A stretch of DNA of 14,244 nt from Nonomuraea sp. (GTDB lineage Bacteria; Actinomycetota; Actinomycetes; Streptosporangiales; Streptosporangiaceae): positions 1-14,244 of the forward strand of contig JABFVJ010000186.1 in NCBI GenBank assembly GCA_013362835.1, written 5' to 3'. The position numbers and the translations under genes were made by a program. The notes under the pieces were generated by a model that saw only the letters and a list, made by a program, of their open reading frames with translations, ran no database searches and was not told the origin of the DNA. Each line of letters starts with the position of its first letter. Position 1 is the first letter of the stretch. Positions 1 to 9,410 of this stretch are shown here, piece by piece.

Positions 1-43
1 GCGCCCTCACCAGGGCCTGTGCACCTGTCATCCGTTCGGTCAT
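1..43 (-). CDS. ilvB: Acetolactate synthase large subunit, N-terminal fragment (runs off the left edge)
   Basis: Only the first 14 codons are in the window; they read MTERMTGAQALVRA. The MTGAQ(A/S)L(V/I)R stretch is how the catalytic core of actinobacterial acetohydroxyacid synthase large subunits usually begins. The enzyme is ThDP-dependent and makes acetolactate or acetohydroxybutyrate, the first common step of valine, leucine and isoleucine synthesis. The start at 43 is supported by a Shine-Dalgarno-like AAGGA (minus strand, 52-56) eight bases upstream. An in-frame ATG at 31 is the alternative. The identification rests on 14 residues, but the Ile/Leu/Val leader peptide and terminator directly upstream support it independently. 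Expected neighbours beyond the edge are ilvN and ilvC; that is inference from actinobacterial gene order. Confidence 0.78.
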   Translation of the reverse strand, partial: MTERMTGAQALVRA

Positions 44-80
44 CGGCTCGTTCCTTGCGTGGCTACTCACTTAAGGACAT

Positions 81-117
81 AAAAAAGGCCCCTTCCCACT
101 GCGGGTGGGACTGGGGC
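81..117 (-). terminator. Intrinsic terminator (attenuator) in the ilvB leader
   Basis: On the minus strand GCCCC (117-113) pairs with GGGGC (92-88), and CCCAC (109-105) pairs with GTGGG (99-95). A small internal loop separates them, with a possible U110-A94 pair, and the apical loop is CCGCA (104-100). The 3' side continues with a C and then TTTTTT (86-81). This is a textbook rho-independent terminator, and a T6 run is rare in such GC-rich DNA. It sits 38 bp before the ilvB start codon and after the leader peptide, so it would stop transcription before ilvB unless it were overridden. Confidence 0.9.
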
Positions 118-157
118 GGCGCGCAGGTCGGAGTGCTTCGCTATCGGCCTGCGCGCC
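118..157 (-). promoter_or_regulatory. Leader RNA hairpin between leader peptide and terminator
   Basis: Minus-strand GGCGCGCAGG (157-148) and CCTGCGCGCC (127-118) are perfectly complementary over 10 bp and enclose the leader peptide stop codon. The 5' arm lies inside leader codons 12-15, so ribosome position decides whether it can pair. A competing pairing exists: TGCTTCGC (190-183, just after the leader start) with GCGAAGCA (141-134), 8 bp perfect. The two pairings interleave and cannot both form fully. I could not derive one unambiguous antiterminator that captures the 5' arm of the terminator, so the exact switching order is open. Confidence 0.75.
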
Positions 158-191
158 GGCGAAGTACTACGAGAATCTCACTGCGAAGCAT
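141..191 (-). CDS. Attenuation leader peptide of the ilvB operon
   Basis: This 16-codon ORF encodes MLRSEILVVLRRRAGR and ends in TAG (143-141). The ILVVL core (176-162) is the signature of a branched-chain amino acid leader peptide. Ribosome stalling at Ile, Leu or Val codons signals shortage and lets RNA polymerase pass the terminator at 81-117. The core uses ATT, GTA, GTA and CTT, which are A/T-ending codons that stand out in this genome and should sharpen stalling. No Shine-Dalgarno sequence precedes the ATG. The promoter at 199-229 predicts a transcript starting at or within a base or two of the ATG, so translation is probably leaderless. The peptide itself is expected to have no function after synthesis. 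The ORF was recognised from sequence; its role as a cis-acting sensor is established for ilv, leu and trp leaders in general. Confidence 0.88.
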   Translation of the reverse strand: MLRSEILVVLRRRAGR

Positions 192-198
192 GGCTTAC

Positions 199-229
199 AC
201 CATAGCCGCTCAGAACGCCCCGGTGTCAA
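199..229 (-). promoter_or_regulatory. Candidate promoter of the ilvB leader transcript
   Basis: Minus-strand TTGACA (229-224) is a perfect -35 hexamer. TATGGT (204-199), 19 bases further on, fits the actinobacterial -10 pattern TANNNT; CTATGG at spacing 18 is the alternative. The expected start of transcription is about base 191-192, which is the ATG of the leader peptide. The 19-base spacer is slightly long. The promoter lies just downstream of the GGDEF-EAL gene and its stop-codon hairpin, so ilvB appears to be transcribed on its own. Confidence 0.65.
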
Positions 230-3102: not shown

Positions 3103-4008
3103 TCAATACGAGTCGGTAATGACGTTGATCAGCGGCTCGCCGGCGAGGTGGCGCCGGAGCTGCTCGCGGATCAGTCGCAGCGTGCGGCGCACGGAGGCGG
3201 GGGTGCTGCCCGCGATGTGCGGTGTGATCAGCACGCCCGGCGCGCTCCAGAGGGGGTGGCCCTCGGGCAGCGGCTCGGGCGCGGTGACGTCGAGCGCGGC
3301 GCGTAGCCTACCGGTTTTGAGCTCGGAGATCAGCGCGTCGGTGTCGACCACCCCGCCCCTGGCCGCGTTGACGAGGACGGCGCCGTCCTTCATCCGGGCC
3401 AGGAAGGCGGCGTCGACCATGCCCGCGGTGTGGGGCGTGGCGGGCACGAGCAGGACGACGACGTCGGCGTCCGGAAGCAGCGCGGGCAACTCGTCCATGG
3501 CGTGCACGCCCTCGCGGGCGCTCCTCGCCACCCGGACGACCTCGACCTCGAAGCCTTCGAGCCGCCGCTCGACCGCCGCGCCGATCGAACCGTGGCCGAC
3601 GATGAGCACGGTGGAGTCGGCGAGCACGCCGGTGTGGTGGTAGGTCCACTCGCCCCTGCGCTGGGCGTCCACGAACCCGGGGAACTCCCTGAGCACCGCG
3701 ATCATCGCGCCGACCGCCCACTCGGCGGTGCCGGCGTCGTGCACGCCGCGGGCGTTGCACAACACCGCCCCTTCGGGCAGGTGCGGCCGGTACGGCTCCA
3801 CCCCCGCGGTCACCGTCTGCACCAGCCGCAACGAACGCATCCTCGCCAGTGTCCCCGGCACGTCGGGCACCACGATCAGCGGCGGGATCCAGACCTCCAC
3901 GTCCTCGATGCCGTCCGGCATGACCGAACCGTCATATACCGCGCATTCGACGCCCGGCAGGTCAGACAGAACATCGGCCGCCGACTCGGACGGAACCCAG
4001 ATCTTCAT
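3103..4008 (-). CDS. D-isomer-specific 2-hydroxyacid dehydrogenase
   Basis: This 301-residue cytosolic oxidoreductase interconverts a D-2-hydroxyacid and its 2-ketoacid with NAD(P)H. The Rossmann motif GHGSIG is at 138-143. The catalytic arginine is R217 in AARGGVVD, the glutamate is E245 in TAPEPLP, and the proton-relay histidine is H264 in TPHIAG. The arginines R159 and R162 after the second strand would favour NADP(H); that is inference. Length is near the family norm (310-330), with a short N-terminal substrate half. I chose ATG 4008 because AAGG lies eight bases upstream on the minus strand; an ATG 21 bases further out lacks such a site. The specific substrate is unknown: glyoxylate/hydroxypyruvate reductase-like and phosphoglycerate dehydrogenase-like are both possible. 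It does not carry the ACT domain of SerA. Confidence 0.9.
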   Translation of the reverse strand: MKIWVPSESAADVLSDLPGVECAVYDGSVMPDGIEDVEVWIPPLIVVPDVPGTLARMRSLRLVQTVTAGVEPYRPHLPEGAVLCNARGVHDAGTAEWAVGAMIAVLREFPGFVDAQRRGEWTYHHTGVLADSTVLIVGHGSIGAAVERRLEGFEVEVVRVARSAREGVHAMDELPALLPDADVVVLLVPATPHTAGMVDAAFLARMKDGAVLVNAARGGVVDTDALISELKTGRLRAALDVTAPEPLPEGHPLWSAPGVLITPHIAGSTPASVRRTLRLIREQLRRHLAGEPLINVITDSY

Positions 4009-4037
4009 GCCGAGAACCTTACGACCCACGGGGAAGT

Positions 4038-5093
4038 ATGGAACACATGAGGAAGCTCTGGACGATCATGCTTCTGGCCGTGCTCGCCGCCTGCTCCGGC
4101 AACGGCGCGGTGCGGCCGACCGCCGCCGTCTCGGCCGCCGTCGCCCCGGGCGCCCCGAAGGACGTGGTGACCGGCCTCGCGGTGCCTTGGGCGATCGCCT
4201 TCCTGCCCGGCGGCGACGCCCTGGTCACCGAGCGGGACTCGGCCAGGCTGCTGCGCGTCACCCCCACCGGCACGATCACCGAACTGGGCAGGATCAGCGA
4301 GGCGCGCCCCGAGGGCGAGGGCGGGCTGATGGGCGTGGCGGTCAAGGACCAGCAGGTCTTCCTGTACTACACGGCCGAGCAGGACAACCGCATCGTGCGC
4401 TACCAGCTCGGCGACAACGGCCTGGGCAGCGGACAACTGCTCGTCCAGGGCATACCGAAGGGCGGCATCCACAACGGCGGCAGGCTCGCCTTCGGCCCCG
4501 ACGGCTACCTGTACGCCACCACCGGCGAGACCGGCGACAGCGACCTCGCCCAGCAACGCGACTCCCTGGCCGGCAAGATCCTGCGCATGACCGTGGACGG
4601 CGCCCCCGCCCCCGGCAACCCGTTCGGCACGCTCGTCTACAGCTACGGCCACCGCAACGTCCAGGGCCTGGCCTGGGACCCCTCAGGCCGCCTGTACGCC
4701 TCGGAGTTCGGCGCCAGCGCCTACGACGAGATCAACCTGATCCGGCCGGGCGCCAACTACGGCTGGCCCGAGGTCGAGGGCAAGGGCAACGACGACAGGT
4801 TCGTCAACCCCATCCTCACCTGGCCCACCGCCGACGCCTCACCGTCCGGAATGGCGTACGCGGACGGCTCTCTGTGGGTGGGCGCGCTGCGCGGCCAGCG
4901 CCTGTGGCAGGTGCCGATCGGCCAGGACGGCTCCCCCGGCACGCCCGTCGCGCACTTCGACGGCCGCTACGGCAGGCTCCGCGCGGTCACCGCCGCTCCC
5001 GACGGCACCCTGTGGGTCGGCACCAGCAACAAGGACGGCAGGGGCTCGCCGCGCCCCGGCGACGACCGGATCCTGTCGGTCACCACGTCCTAG
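4038..5093 (+). CDS. PQQ-dependent sugar (aldose/sorbosone-type) dehydrogenase, lipoprotein
   Basis: The protein belongs to the glucose/sorbosone dehydrogenase beta-propeller family. Members oxidise sugars outside the membrane with pyrroloquinoline quinone. The N-terminus has a basic residue pair, a hydrophobic stretch and a lipobox LAAC with Cys19, so it should be exported and lipid-anchored on the outer face. Family motifs in order are WAIAFLPGG (51-59), EGEGGLMGVAV (92-102), GGIHNGGRLAFGPDG (142-156, H145 being the likely catalytic base), SLAGKILRM (176-184) and YGHRNVQGLAWD (203-214). ATG 4038 has GGGGA only three bases before it; ATG 4047 (three codons in) has it 12 bases away, so the start is ambiguous. 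The start codon lies 29 bp from that of the divergent dehydrogenase. No PQQ biosynthesis genes are in the window, and many family members have unproven substrates. Confidence 0.88.
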   Translation: MEHMRKLWTIMLLAVLAACSGNGAVRPTAAVSAAVAPGAPKDVVTGLAVPWAIAFLPGGDALVTERDSARLLRVTPTGTITELGRISEARPEGEGGLMGVAVKDQQVFLYYTAEQDNRIVRYQLGDNGLGSGQLLVQGIPKGGIHNGGRLAFGPDGYLYATTGETGDSDLAQQRDSLAGKILRMTVDGAPAPGNPFGTLVYSYGHRNVQGLAWDPSGRLYASEFGASAYDEINLIRPGANYGWPEVEGKGNDDRFVNPILTWPTADASPSGMAYADGSLWVGALRGQRLWQVPIGQDGSPGTPVAHFDGRYGRLRAVTAAPDGTLWVGTSNKDGRGSPRPGDDRILSVTTS

Positions 5094-7090
5094 CCGGACG
5101 AGAGGCAGGTGAGCGCGGTCTGCGGCCGGTACTTCGTGGTCAGCTTCTTGTCCTTCTTGACGGCCTTGCCGTCCTTGTAGAACACGCGGGTGACGTCGAT
5201 CGTGAAGCCCTGCTCGCCGTTGGCGGCCACGCAGCCGGGCTCGTTGCTGGTCGCCCGGCCGAACGGCGTGAAGTCCCGCCGCGCGGACTCGACCGCCTCG
5301 ACCTTGTCGTACCGCTTGGTGCTCCACAGGGTGACGGTCACCGAGGTCGGCGTCGTGACGGTCTTGATCAGGACGCCGTACTCGGAGTCGTTGCGCCACT
5401 TGAGGTCGCGGTCGGGGTAGAGCAGCGCCACGTCACGGCCGGCCGGGTAGGCGGGCGCGAAGTAGTCCATGGGATCGTGCTCGACGAGGTCGAACCCGCC
5501 GAGGAAGACCGCGTTGTACATGGTGGTGGCGAACTGGGACACGCCGCCGCCGACGATGTTGACCATGCGGCCGCCGACGATCTGGCCGGCCTCGACGTAG
5601 CCGTCCTCGGCCGTGCGCTCGCCGGTCACCTCGTTGAGCGACAGGGTCTCCCCCGGTTTGACCAGCATGCCGTCGAAGTCCTGGGCCATGCGCCTGATGT
5701 TGGTCGCGCGGGGCAGGCAGCAGTCGAAGCTCGTGCTGAACGTGCCGACGTTCTCCTTGATGCCGAGGCCGCGGATCTGGCTCGTGGTGACCTGCGGGGT
5801 GACCACGCCGAGCCTGACCTCGACGGTCCGCGCGGCGCCCGAGGTGAACAGCGCCTCCAGGTCGCGGGCCAGCAGCTTGTCGTTCACGCCCCGGCCCCTG
5901 CGCGCGGGCACCAGGACGGGCTTGTCGTTCACGATCTGGTACGTGGCGTCGCGCGGCTGCTGCGTGGCGTCCACCAGGCCGCTCTCCACGGACGTGAGCG
6001 CGCCCTTGGCGTCGAACCGGGGGACGAGCGTGCCGTCGCCGTCGGGCACGTAGGTCAGGTTGGCCGCGATCACGGCCGGGGTGAGCTGGGCCTGCCTGCC
6101 GGCGAGGGTCAGCGTGACCGGCGCGGACACGGCCTTCCTGGCCTTCACCACGGCCGCCTCGACGGCCTCGGGCGTGGTGTCGGGCTTGGCCGGCCGCATG
6201 GTGAGCGAGACCGCGCCCCCGCCGCGCAGGAACGCGTCGCCGATCCTGCGTACGGCGTCGTCGCGGTCGAGGAGCACGCCGTCCTCGGGCATGCGGGCCT
6301 TCGGCTCCAGGCCGGAGAAGACCACCCTGCCCTCGCGCGCCTGCTTGTCCACGCCTTCGGCCAGGCCCTCGACGGTCCTGGTGAGCTGGGAGGAGTCGAC
6401 GCTGATCTTGGGCTGGACGTCGGTCGTGCCGGTCAGGCCGTGCCAGACCTCCAGGGGGCCGGGGAAGCCGCTCGGGGCCTGCCCGATGGTGCCGACCACG
6501 TCGAGTTCGAGCCCGGCCTCGTCGGGCTGGACGGTGTCCTTCTTGCCGCCGATGTCCACGACGACCGGCGTGCTCAGCTTGGCGCCCAGCTCGGTACGCA
6601 GCTTGTCGGCCGCCTGGGTGACGGTCAGGCCGCCGATCTCCACGCCGCCCACCCGCGTACCGCGCAGCACGGCTCCGGACATCATCACGGCGGGGACGAC
6701 GTACGCCAGGGTCGCGAGGACGAGGACGAGGACGATCAGGCCGGGCAGCAGGCGGCGCCTGCGCGGCGGCTCGGGTTCGAAGGCGGTCGGCCGCTCCTGG
6801 CCTCCAGCGGCCCCGAACACGGGGGCGGGCGCGGCGGCGGGGTCCTTGTCCTTCATCGGCCACGGCTGCGCGGGCGGCGCCTTCGGGGGCAGGGCGCCAC
6901 CGGTCTGACCGCCGGGCGCGCTCGGTGCGGGGGCCGGCCGGGACTCCTGCTGGTCCTGCGGGCCGAAGATGTCGCGGGACACGCCCGGGGGTAATCCTTC
7001 GATCCGCGGCTTCTTGGAGACGCCCGAGGTCGGCAGTGGCACCGAGGCGAACGGGTCGGTCGGTGATTCGATCGGTCCGGCGTTTCGCAC
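5090..7090 (-). CDS. VanW-family cell-envelope protein with peptidoglycan-binding-like region
   Basis: This 666-residue membrane protein begins with a proline- and alanine-rich cytoplasmic tail (1-110). A stop-transfer RRRR and one membrane helix (about 115-138) follow, and the rest is extracellular. Residues about 140-430 hold two divergent copies of the fold often annotated as a putative peptidoglycan-binding domain. The VanW domain follows (about 446-600), with FSTSFDCCLPRATNI (450-464), KPGETLSLNE (478-487) and GGGVSQFATTMYNAVF (514-529). Four cysteines are visible outside the membrane: C457, C458, C620 and C662. VanW proteins occur in vancomycin-resistance clusters and widely in actinobacterial walls, but their activity is not established. 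The GTG start is secure because GGGAGGAG lies about nine bases upstream. The last bases overlap the convergent sugar dehydrogenase by 4 bp. No van resistance genes are nearby, so a resistance role is not implied. Confidence 0.9.
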   Translation of the reverse strand: MRNAGPIESPTDPFASVPLPTSGVSKKPRIEGLPPGVSRDIFGPQDQQESRPAPAPSAPGGQTGGALPPKAPPAQPWPMKDKDPAAAPAPVFGAAGGQERPTAFEPEPPRRRRLLPGLIVLVLVLATLAYVVPAVMMSGAVLRGTRVGGVEIGGLTVTQAADKLRTELGAKLSTPVVVDIGGKKDTVQPDEAGLELDVVGTIGQAPSGFPGPLEVWHGLTGTTDVQPKISVDSSQLTRTVEGLAEGVDKQAREGRVVFSGLEPKARMPEDGVLLDRDDAVRRIGDAFLRGGGAVSLTMRPAKPDTTPEAVEAAVVKARKAVSAPVTLTLAGRQAQLTPAVIAANLTYVPDGDGTLVPRFDAKGALTSVESGLVDATQQPRDATYQIVNDKPVLVPARRGRGVNDKLLARDLEALFTSGAARTVEVRLGVVTPQVTTSQIRGLGIKENVGTFSTSFDCCLPRATNIRRMAQDFDGMLVKPGETLSLNEVTGERTAEDGYVEAGQIVGGRMVNIVGGGVSQFATTMYNAVFLGGFDLVEHDPMDYFAPAYPAGRDVALLYPDRDLKWRNDSEYGVLIKTVTTPTSVTVTLWSTKRYDKVEAVESARRDFTPFGRATSNEPGCVAANGEQGFTIDVTRVFYKDGKAVKKDKKLTTKYRPQTALTCLSSG

Positions 7091-7182: not shown

Positions 7183-7842
7183 TCAACCACGCCACCGGTA
7201 GCGATGTTCGGGGCGGCCCGCGGTGCCGTAGCGGGGGTGGAGTTCGGCCCGTCCCGACGCGCACAGGTGCTCCAGATAGCGGCGGGCGCTCACCCTCGAC
7301 AGGCCCGTGAGCTCGGCCGTCTCGGCCGCCGACAGGTCGCGCCCGGCCTCGCGCAGCGTCTCGGCGACCAGCGCGCAGGTGGCCGGCGACAGGCCCTTCG
7401 GCATCGGGGCCGGCCTGGGCGCGCCGAAGAGCCGGTCCACGTCGTCCTGGCGGGCCTCGCGGCCGATCGCCGTGAGCCTGTTGCGGGTGTCGGCGTACTG
7501 GCGGAGGCGTTCGGCGAGGGCGGCGGCGGTGAACGGCTTGATCAGGTAGTTGACCGCGCCGCCGCGCATGGCCTCCCTGACCGTGGGCACGTCGCGGGCC
7601 GCGCTGATCATCAGGACGTCGACGTCGTCGAGCGCCTTGAGCACCTCCAGGCCGGACATGTCGGGCAGGTAGATGTCGAGCAGGACCAGGTCGGGCCGCA
7701 GCCCGGCCACCGCCGCGAGCGCGTCGGCGCCGCTGTGGGCCACGGAGACGACCTCGAAGCCGGGGACGCGGGAGACGTAGCCGCTGTGGATGCGGGCCAC
7801 CATGAAGTCGTCGTCCACGACCAGGACCCGTACGTCGTTCAC
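7183..7842 (-). CDS. CitB/DcuR-type response regulator
   Basis: This 219-residue cytoplasmic transcription regulator has a receiver domain (about 4-118). Its acidic pocket is D10-D11, the phospho-acceptor is D56 in LLDIYLPDMSG, and K102 lies in IKPF. The C-terminal helix-turn-helix (about 168-195, LSAAETAELTGLSRVSARRYLEHL region) is the small winged type of the CitB/DcuR/DpiA family. The GTG start at 7842 overlaps the kinase stop as GTGA, implying coupled translation and a cognate pair. The target is most likely the divergent tctCBA operon and its own promoter. Upstream in-frame codons run inside the kinase gene in another frame and look unlike protein, so the longer reading is rejected. Confidence 0.92.
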   Translation of the reverse strand: MNDVRVLVVDDDFMVARIHSGYVSRVPGFEVVSVAHSGADALAAVAGLRPDLVLLDIYLPDMSGLEVLKALDDVDVLMISAARDVPTVREAMRGGAVNYLIKPFTAAALAERLRQYADTRNRLTAIGREARQDDVDRLFGAPRPAPMPKGLSPATCALVAETLREAGRDLSAAETAELTGLSRVSARRYLEHLCASGRAELHPRYGTAGRPEHRYRWRG

Positions 7843-9410
7843 GCGCCGGCCTCGGCGGGCAGCAGGGCCGTGAAGACGGCGCCGTCGGCGTTGCGCACGC
7901 GTACCCAGCCGCCCCTGCGCAGGCACGCCTGCCGGGTCAGGGCCAGGCCGAGCCCGCGCGGCCCCGACTGGGCGGCCTTGGTCGTGAAGCCCTCCCTGAA
8001 CACCTCTTCCACCAGGTCGGGCGTGATGCCGGGGCCGGAGTCGCCGACGCGTACGCGCAGGCCCTCGTCGTCGGCCACGACCGACACCTCGATCGTGCCG
8101 ACCCCGCCGTCGAGCGCGTCGATCGCGTTGGCGACCAGGTTTCCGACCACGAGGACGGCGTCCTGCGGGTCGCCGAGCGCGCCCTCGGGCACGTCGGAGT
8201 CCTCCGACAGCACCAGCCGCGCGCCGCGCTCGGCCGCCTCGGCGGACTTGGCGAGCAGCAGGGCGGCGAGCGTCGGGTCCTGGACGCGTTCGCGCAGGTC
8301 GGTCGCGTACGTGCCGCGCGTGGTACGGGTGATGAAGCCGATCGCGGCGTCGTGCTCGCCGAGCTCCAGCAGGCCCACGACGGTGTGCATGCGGTTGGCG
8401 AACTCGTGGGCCTGGGCGCGCAGGGCCTCGGTGGCGCTGCTGGAGTCGTCCAGCTCGCGGGCCAGGCGTACCAGCTCGGTACGGTCACGCAGGGTGACGA
8501 CCCAGCCGCGATGCCTGCCGCGCACGGAGACCGGGGTCCTGTTGAGCACCAGCACGCGGTCGCCGTGCAGCACCACGCGGTCCTCGCCCTGGTCGGCGCC
8601 GGTCAGCACGTCGCGCATGCGCTCGGAGACCGGCATGCCCGCCACGTCGGAGCCGAGGTCGCCGAGCAGGTCGCGGGCCGCGTCGTTGACCAGCGTGACC
8701 CGGCCCTCCAGGTCGAGCGCGAGCACGCCCTCCTTCACGCCGTGCAGCACGCCCTCGCGCTGCTCCAGCAGGGCGGCGATCTCGCGCGGCTCCAGGCCGA
8801 ACGTCTGCCTGCGCACCCGCGCGGTGATCAGCGCGGCCAGCGCCAGCCCGGCCAGCAGCACGGCCAGCGCGGTCCAGATCAGCGGCGGCAGCGCGGCGCC
8901 GAGCTGGCCGGTGACCGTGGTCTGCAGCACGCCGACCGAGACCAGGCCGATGACGTTGCCGTATTCGTCGCGGATGGGGGTCTTGCCCCTGACGGTGGTG
9001 CCGATCGTGCCGGTCTCGGTGCCGACCCAGCTCCGGCCCGTACGCAGCACGGCGGTGCCGTCGGTCGACAGCCGCTTGCCGATCAGCGCGGCGTTGGGGT
9101 GGGCGTAGCGCTTCTGCTCGGTGTTGGCGATGGCCACGTAGTCGGCCCCGGTCTCGTGCTGGACGCTGAGCGCCAGCGGCTGCAGCACCGTCTCCGGGTT
9201 CTCCAGCCTGAACGCGTCGCGCACCTGCGGAAGGGCGGCCACCGACTGCGCGATGGCCAGGGCGCGCTGCTGGTGCAGCGCGTCGAGCTGCTCGCGCGTG
9301 TGCCCGGCCCACACTCCCGCCGTGCCGCCGACGGCGAGCAGGACGATCACCATCTGGAGCACGAACAACTGGGTGCCCAGTGGGGCATCGGTTACCCTGC
9401 GCACGCCCAC
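7839..9410 (-). CDS. CitA/DcuS-type sensor histidine kinase
   Basis: This membrane sensor of about 523 residues has a first membrane helix (about 15-36) and an extracellular PAS/Cache-like domain (about 38-170). The domain contains RYAHPNAALIGKRL (101-114) and a GYDE-like RDEYGNVIGLVSVGVL (147-162), as in citrate and C4-dicarboxylate sensors. A second helix (about 175-197), a cytoplasmic PAS (about 215-310) and the kinase core follow. The phospho-acceptor H335 sits in LRAQAHEFANRMH, the SPOB-like arrangement of this family. The ATPase has N427 in NLVANAIDAL, DSGPGI (457-462) and RGLGLAL (485-491). The ligand is probably a di- or tricarboxylate, judging from the transporter next door. The start is not certain: GTG 9410 or GTG 9404 both fit, with no good Shine-Dalgarno sequence. 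The longer open frame upstream crosses the promoter region and is not protein-like. Confidence 0.92.
   Translation of the reverse strand: MGVRRVTDAPLGTQLFVLQMVIVLLAVGGTAGVWAGHTREQLDALHQQRALAIAQSVAALPQVRDAFRLENPETVLQPLALSVQHETGADYVAIANTEQKRYAHPNAALIGKRLSTDGTAVLRTGRSWVGTETGTIGTTVRGKTPIRDEYGNVIGLVSVGVLQTTVTGQLGAALPPLIWTALAVLLAGLALAALITARVRRQTFGLEPREIAALLEQREGVLHGVKEGVLALDLEGRVTLVNDAARDLLGDLGSDVAGMPVSERMRDVLTGADQGEDRVVLHGDRVLVLNRTPVSVRGRHRGWVVTLRDRTELVRLARELDDSSSATEALRAQAHEFANRMHTVVGLLELGEHDAAIGFITRTTRGTYATDLRERVQDPTLAALLLAKSAEAAERGARLVLSEDSDVPEGALGDPQDAVLVVGNLVANAIDALDGGVGTIEVSVVADDEGLRVRVGDSGPGITPDLVEEVFREGFTTKAAQSGPRGLGLALTRQACLRRGGWVRVRNADGAVFTALLPAEAGA

Follow-up and report, generated by a model that had tools for sequence, protein, structure and literature searches.

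Introduction

In the trp, thr, leu and ilvBN attenuators of Escherichia coli, a ribosome that stalls on control codons selects between RNA helices. Among actinobacteria, the ilvBNC operon of Corynebacterium glutamicum is described as having a three-hairpin attenuator (PMC11857589, published in 2025), in which transcription starts one nucleotide from the leader start codon, the leader carries branched-chain amino acid (BCAA) codons that include CUU and GUA, and an anti-antiterminator, an antiterminator and a terminator follow in this order. According to the same paper, point mutations in the terminator increase expression, and changing leader Val codons to Ala codons abolishes the valine response (Morbach 2000, cited in PMC11857589). 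In the ilvB1NC operon of Mycobacterium tuberculosis, a uORF with GUA is reported to allow an anti-terminator when the ribosome is at GUA and to mask it when the ribosome is at the stop codon, and replacement of LVVI by AAAA abolishes induction (PMC13236596). The structures are predicted there to be mutually exclusive, in a manner that the accessible text leaves unstated, and an extended figure also presents ilvB1 leaders of other bacteria. The ilvB-II motif of Corynebacterium likewise combines a uORF, a P1 hairpin and a terminator, P2, but its antiterminator is described as pairing the 3’ side of the terminator with the P1 loop (PMC10272879). An earlier comparative study (Seliverstov 2005; PMC1262725) placed leader peptides and terminators upstream of ilvB in Corynebacterium, Mycobacterium and Streptomyces; its accessible text gives terminators only and terms the mode of regulation unclear, with codon mutants of Streptomyces coelicolor that did not fit. 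Finally, the IlvL leader of Streptomyces lividans (MRTRILVLGKRVG) is reported to be leaderless and to precede ilvBHC, together with hairpins and a U-rich segment (PMC8079986).

Codon-dependent induction of ilvB is known from C. glutamicum and M. tuberculosis, which belongs to another actinobacterial order. Here we describe the region upstream of ilvB in the window, the whole 14,244-nucleotide stretch of Nonomuraea DNA that was analysed. Actinobacterial ilv leaders with terminators (PMC1262725, PMC10272879, PMC8079986) and the three-hairpin logic (PMC11857589) are already on record; within the open PMC literature, as far as it was searched and in the text accessible there, the members from Streptosporangiales, the rule that sets the distances between GUA, P1 and terminator together with its held-out test, the variant in which the stop codon precedes P1, and the finding that overlap is dispensable and abutment is kept appear to be new.

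Results and discussion

The ilvB leader region of the window

The sequence and its predicted folds indicate that ilvB is preceded by a ribosome-mediated BCAA transcription attenuator with three hairpins (Y, P1 and T), a reading to which we assign a probability of roughly 0.78. Its features, in window coordinates, are as follows.

229-224, minus strand: -35 hexamer TTGACA of the candidate ilvB promoter (direct reading; Nonomuraea relatives compared by eye)
204-199, minus strand: -10 hexamer TATGGT, 19 nt from the -35 hexamer and ending 7 nt before the leader ATG
191-141, minus strand: leader ORF MLRSEILVVLRRRAGR, stop codon TAG at 143-141
176-162, minus strand: control codons ATT CTC GTA GTA CTT (direct reading and codon counts)
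167-133, minus strand: Y hairpin, proposed anti-antiterminator, arms 167-155 and 148-133, including P0 (CTTCGC:GCGAAG)
167-166/164-155 with 148-145/141-136/134-133, minus strand: pairing within Y in the predicted fold
158-148, minus strand: 5’ arm of P1, the proposed antiterminator, inside leader codons 12-15
127-117, minus strand: 3’ arm of P1, whose last base, G117, is the one base common to P1 and the terminator
157-148 with 127-118, minus strand: P1 stem, 11 bp once C158-G117 is counted
117-88, minus strand: intrinsic terminator hairpin T, arms 117-113/110-105 with 99-94/92-88 (sequence and fold)
86-81, minus strand: T6 tract (direct reading)
56-51, minus strand: purine-rich AAGGAA upstream of the ilvB ATG (sequence)
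43-1, minus strand: start of ilvB, acetolactate synthase large subunit, ATG at 43-41 (Pfam in a relative, and sequence)

The original prediction had placed a promoter, a leader ORF, a hairpin, an intrinsic terminator, a T6 tract and the ilvB start in this order, which reading of the minus strand bears out; the 123-nt leader folds with a z of -3.1. Consensus scans of the window reported neither promoter nor terminator, as is to be expected with the 19-nt spacer and an internal loop in the terminator stem, whereas sequence and fold place an intrinsic terminator between the leader ORF and ilvB. The Ile-Leu-Val-Val-Leu control codons can be read directly as predicted, and the hairpin formed by 157-148 and 127-118, originally given 10 bp, is present. 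A short ORF rich in codons of the pathway's own products thus stands upstream of a biosynthetic operon, as in BCAA attenuators. The 14 ilvB codons that are complete in the window read MTERMTGAQALVRA, the same as in the nearest relative compared, Nonomuraea spiralis JCM 3286, which matches the window at 97% identity across 230 bases of the leader region and in which Pfam places ilvB, ilvN and ilvC consecutively. The -10 hexamer, by its distance from the leader ATG, suggests that the leader ORF is probably translated leaderless, with transcription starting at or beside the ATG.

Control of ilvB by a T-box or a ppGpp-type ligand riboswitch would be a different explanation, and T-boxes occur on such genes. 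No Rfam match at the gathering score was found in the window with 4227 families, among which we take the ppGpp riboswitch and T-box models to be included. Window bases 1-400 gave sub-threshold hits only; Atu_C8 and two microRNA families, all under the gathering score, were taken as chance. ppGpp riboswitches are described as regulating ilvB in some bacteria, and the accessible text of the same paper reports no ppGpp-dependent structure change for the ilvB-II RNA of Corynebacterium ulcerans (PMC10272879). We regard control of this ilvB by either element as extremely unlikely.

Leaders in related genomes and their control codons

A family search with a 230-base query matched 86 of 150 family genomes, from which 30 loci and 40 further matches were fetched, and a protein scan of genome contigs contributed the best 80 of at least 592 ilvB loci. 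Leaders were then recognized by an ORF tail with three consecutive I/L/V residues followed by a pair of R/K/Q/E and R/V/A/S, and by a T run 30-110 nt past the stop codon; GUA, P1 and the contact described below formed no part of this filter. The window and the 152 loci made up 153 sources, of which 140 yielded exactly one candidate, for a total of 125 distinct leaders. The 13 sources without a candidate comprise a locus cut 27 nt upstream (L108), one with a weak T run (L149), a second ilvB paralog (L002) and ten loci with an earlier stop codon, which are taken up below. The paralog is a second ilvB-like gene of N. spiralis (G001:C4:549286-550755), whose protein is 82% identical, and the filter gave no candidate in its 3 kb. 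The original prediction had named an unconserved leader or terminator, or a downstream gene other than ilvB, as outcomes speaking against it; none of these was seen, since relatives keep both leader and terminator and ilvB is the gene that follows. Its central claim of attenuation through BCAA codons is further supported by the reported experiments on the C. glutamicum and M. tuberculosis homologues (PMC11857589, PMC13236596). In 116 of the 125 leaders an NANNNT hexamer ends 6-7 nt ahead of an in-frame start codon, as compared to ~10% at random positions, although the count is generous in that the script was free to choose among several starts.

The control codons are highly selective. An in-frame GUA occurs at most 45 nt before the stop codon in 125/125 leaders, and GUA accounts for 202 of the 208 Val codons in the control blocks, as compared to 46 of 3358 (1.4%) in IlvB ORFs (first 1470 bases of 80 ORFs). 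The codon directly after the last GUA is CUU in 102/125 leaders, whereas CTT makes up 72 of 2858 Leu codons in the same background. The control codons had been called mostly rare, and this is correct for GTA, CTT and ATT (93/2364 Ile codons); CTC, at 999/2858 Leu codons, is not rare. The theory of selective tRNA charging is reported to make the sensitivity of an attenuator depend on the use of one particular synonymous codon (PMC1183508).

P1 abuts the terminator

P1 was taken to be the best helix with a 5’ arm starting 6 nt or more downstream of the G of GUA, with the same outcome for the 125 leaders whether overlap with the terminator was limited to 4 nt or left without limit. In all 125 leaders P1 starts +7 to +11 nt from GUA and overlaps the 5’ arm of the terminator by -2 to +3 nt, across loops of 12-49 nt; P1 and the terminator have no base in common in 84 leaders and 1-3 nt in common in 41. 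As a control, the same search returned overlaps of 11 nt for E. coli thr, 6 nt for trp, 9 nt for leu and 13 nt for ilvBN, whereas the best helix of his lay clear of the terminator (-18). In the classical form the antiterminator helix overlaps the terminator 5’ arm and so excludes the terminator, an arrangement that is not found here. We therefore file the attenuator as a variant rather than the classical form, since P1 and terminator overlap by 1 nt in the window and not at all in 84/125 leaders, as compared to 6-13 nt in 4/5 E. coli controls. It had been noted earlier that neither stem of the window simply occludes the terminator, which holds for P1 with its single common base, and that the scheme might depart from the 1:2/2:3/3:4 order. 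The roles of Y, P1 and T look classical after all; the departure is that the 2:3-like helix abuts the 3:4 helix without overlap. The leader geometry, the E. coli controls and the comparison of held-out class genomes with shuffled DNA (below) establish that contact of P1 with the terminator, rather than overlap, is what is conserved. In this the window also differs from C. glutamicum, where a common GCC trinucleotide is taken as the switch (PMC11857589): the window has one common base in place of three. By inspection, no strong equivalent of the ilvB-II antiterminator pairing was seen in the window.

The ten loci with an earlier stop codon are informative about the nature of P1. In these leaders (L090, L094, L110, L128, L133, L137, L139, L145, L147 and L148), which record titles place in Micromonosporales, Jiangellales, Frankiales and Geodermatophilales, the ORF stops right after the control codons, as in GTA CTT CAT TAG leading into CGCG, and P1 begins ~10-13 nt past GUA and lies directly against the terminator (n = 10, by eye). 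Among the 75 rule-meeting held-out leaders, 13 likewise have a stop codon that starts no later than the first base of P1. As the geometry persists where the stop codon precedes or meets P1, P1 is conserved as RNA and not as peptide. These leaders bear directly on the idea of an arrest peptide, in which the like C-terminal residues (RRRAG, GRRAG, GKRVG) would act on the ribosome and P1 would be a by-product of the codons. Such tails are indeed similar across families, yet P1 remains in both groups of leaders whose ORF ends at or before its first bases, and we consider an arrest peptide very improbable.

Modelling of the switch

To describe the switch, the ribosome at GUA was modelled as a mask to +12. 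With the ribosome in this position the mean probability of P1 is 0.79 (74 leaders), 0.83 (50 leaders) and 0.78 (window), and with the ribosome at the stop codon it is 0.00, 0.02 and 0.00, respectively; i.e. in the folding model P1 is permitted by the stalled ribosome and prevented by one at the stop codon. The terminator behaves differently. Its probability remains at least 0.8 with the ribosome stalled in 125/125 leaders, and base pairing alone therefore gives no ON state. When the ribosome is placed at the stop codon, the terminator drops below 0.8 in 5/125 leaders (L019, L092, L105, L109 and L127), against the expected OFF state. Before the 3’ arm of the terminator has been made, the lower part of the 5’ arm stays largely free of pairing in the model (mean 0.79; under 0.5 in 1/125), and a hidden overlapping antiterminator in the stalled, incomplete RNA was rejected on this ground. 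A pairing of leader CUCG with CGAG in the 3’ arm of the terminator was seen by eye in several orders and was set aside, as it is absent from the Nonomuraea terminator.

A terminator that persists in every leader with a stalled ribosome is also what a constitutive partial terminator would give, with P1 and T coexisting, P1 acting as a pause or synchronising hairpin, and regulation residing elsewhere, e.g. at the promoter. The conserved element upstream of the -35 box (below) would suit this explanation, as would the leader codon substitutions in S. coelicolor, which were reportedly without effect (cited in PMC1262725) and count against a codon-based attenuator. It is at odds with the way in which GUA and its spacing from P1 are conserved, and with the codon-dependent regulation reported for M. 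tuberculosis (PMC13236596) and C. glutamicum (PMC11857589), and we judge it unlikely.

The attenuator that we favour would operate as follows. Transcription would begin at or next to the leader ATG, and the ORF would be translated leaderless. With an ample supply of Val, Leu and Ile, the ribosome would reach the stop codon at 143-141 and cover the 5’ arm of P1; with P1 prevented, the terminator would form and transcription would end. When charged tRNA is scarce, above all that for GUA, the ribosome would stall on 176-162, which would open Y, with its 5’ arm of control codons, and leave the 5’ arm of P1 free just ahead of the ribosome, so that P1 could form. P1 would then be flush with both the ribosome and the terminator base, one at either end, and would keep the terminator from being completed, and ilvBNC would be transcribed. 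In RNA that carries no ribosome, Y would compete with P1 for the P1 5’ arm.

The last step can be pictured in two ways, as the codon dependence in M. tuberculosis and the terminator dependence in C. glutamicum imply either that 0-3 boundary bases suffice or that P1 works by contact. In the former, modelled on the ‘fast attenuator’ of C. glutamicum, the outermost pairs of P1 would take 1-3 nt from the base of the terminator; the common GCC trinucleotide is placed at this boundary in C. glutamicum (PMC11857589), and the 41 leaders with common bases, and the window with its one, would be compatible with it. However, 84/125 discovery leaders and 60/75 held-out leaders have no such base, and in the window C158-G117 lies beneath the modelled footprint (to +12) when the last GUA is in the A site. 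Boundary sharing, which concerns this step only, is possible but falls short of an even chance.

In the latter, a ribosome stalled at GUA would be flush with P1, and P1 flush with the terminator, such that a steric block would arise in the RNA exit channel without common bases, and selection would keep both distances rather than complementarity. A helix can start ~11-12 nt after the first P-site base, and we infer that P1 would lie at the mRNA entrance of the ribosome when GUA is in the A site. Terminator hairpins are considered to fold inside the RNA exit channel, and a steric block at this site by phage P7 is described (PMC6624301). We slightly prefer contact over boundary sharing, since a steric block in the exit channel is known from P7 and, with no linker present, P1 would have to enter the channel too; P1 would thus antiterminate mainly by contact rather than by taking terminator bases. 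For actinomycete ilvB as a whole we propose contact antitermination tentatively, at somewhat less than even odds. If contact alone antiterminates, searches that require overlapping antiterminators would miss such attenuators, and these leaders would offer a direct probe of how intrinsic termination is suppressed by RNA together with a ribosome at the exit channel.

The Y hairpin

Within the stretch bounded by GUA and the 3’ arm of P1, the control codons pair with RNA just past the stop codon to give the Y hairpin. The arms of Y differ between groups, e.g. CUUCG:CGAAG in Nonomuraea, CUUGG:CCAAG in Actinomadura, CUUCC:GGAAG in Amycolatopsis and AUCGGC:GCCGGU in Rhodococcoides. In an alignment of 75 rows (A1), P0 is paired in 93.1% of cells, and two of its six pairs change on both sides (CG to GC in 12 rows, CG to UA in 14), the innermost pair being unpaired in 30/75 rows. 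For P0, P1 and T jointly, the number of both-side-changed cells and the covariation score in A1 exceed those of all 500 shuffles, values that are inflated by relatedness of the rows; the number of pairs with a both-side change (4, as compared to a shuffle mean of 2.6) was reached by 66/500 shuffles and is not above chance. In a second alignment (A2) the 3’ arm of P0 is misaligned between orders, so pair counts were omitted there and a register-free swap test was used instead. When arms are exchanged among all leaders, both P0 (z -10.3) and P1 (z -11.0) become weaker, with P0 at -6.4 and P1, which hardly varies there, at -1.4 in the Streptosporangiales set, and -4.2 and -10.0, respectively, in the other leaders; relatedness inflates these scores as well. 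Mean fold z values for Y, in groups set approximately by sequence signatures and locus numbers, are -2.1 in Streptosporangiaceae (64), -3.8 in Thermomonosporaceae (9), -1.8 in Nocardiopsidaceae (3), -2.0 in Pseudonocardiales (13) and -1.3 in Mycobacteriales (14). The fold gives no support for Y in Streptomycetales (-0.26, 13 leaders) or in the ‘other’ group (-0.13, 9 leaders), nor does the swap test for P0 in Streptomycetales (z +2.6). For the S. lividans leader, the accessible text describes the hairpins without switch roles (PMC8079986).

In the window, Y folds with a z of -2.1 (60 shuffles), which together with the covariation of P0 in A1 is in keeping with an anti-antiterminator, but P1 wins in the free RNA (0.99, as compared to 0.01 for P0), and this modelled balance suggests that Y may be of little weight in the window. 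P0 and P1 are interleaved and were considered as a simultaneous pseudoknot; as the extended Y of many leaders uses part of the 5’ arm of P1, they are treated as alternatives. The LEU element, a conserved pseudoknot upstream of leuA, differs in position from the interleaved P0 and P1 described here, which lie upstream of ilvB. The second stem originally proposed, 190-183 with 141-134, can form but is not conserved, its 5’ arm CTTCGC (codons 2-3) occurring in 16/75 rows of A1 by eye. It was rejected as a switch element: the widely kept partner of GCGAAG is the CTTCGC at codons 10-11 (164-159).

A distance rule in held-out genomes

The order of in-frame GUA, 7-11 nt, P1, contact and terminator constitutes a comparative rule, which was applied to genomes outside the discovery set. 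In its tested form it required a terminator, P1 within 3 nt of it, a GUA 8-14 nt before P1, and a GUA-containing ORF with at least three I/L/V residues around the GUA. An IlvB search matched 96 of 98 class genomes and 107 of 119 phylum genomes. The held-out class set consisted of 92 of the 96 upstream regions, four earlier-used genomes being left out, and four of the 92 were family members that the 230-base query had not matched; the non-class set was 28 of 97 matched genomes, mostly the best-scoring, with one region cut to 192 bases. A terminator-like site was present in 87/92 class regions and the full rule was satisfied in 75/92, as compared to 3/870 when the DNA upstream of the terminator was shuffled. 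No core among the 75 leaders is identical to any discovery leader. The overlap of P1 with the terminator is -2 to +2 nt in 73/75, the exceptions being L186 (-7, a 7-nt gap, which is among the 60 leaders that lack a common base) and L200 (+12). Six of the 17 class regions that failed the rule (L237-L242) come from small genomes (1.3-1.4 Mb) of one genus, in which ilvB is present and the leader is absent by the rule.

Outside the class, 7/28 regions satisfied the full rule, and in five of these seven (L246, L248, L250, L263 and L265) the stop codon starts 2 nt before P1. Judged from these sequences, the short-ORF form of the leader may be either ancient or of repeated origin.

Elements around the leader

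A few nucleotides upstream of the ilvB -35 hexamer, on the minus strand at 238-265 of the window, lies the element GAGA[CT]N3-4[TC]GTCC, which occurs in 53/64 Streptosporangiaceae leaders, 13/61 other leaders and 0.16% of mononucleotide shuffles. From its conservation and position it may be an operator. In the window, the first part of the element sits in a perfect 10-bp inverted repeat (265-241) that overlaps the stop codon of the upstream GGDEF-EAL gene; the arms of the repeat are not kept in the Nonomuraea relatives compared. Farther into the window, Pfam identifies a D-2-hydroxyacid dehydrogenase (3103-4029, minus strand), a GSDH protein (4038-5093, plus strand), a VanW-like protein with PG_binding_4 (5090-7090, minus strand) and a response regulator (7183-7926, minus strand).
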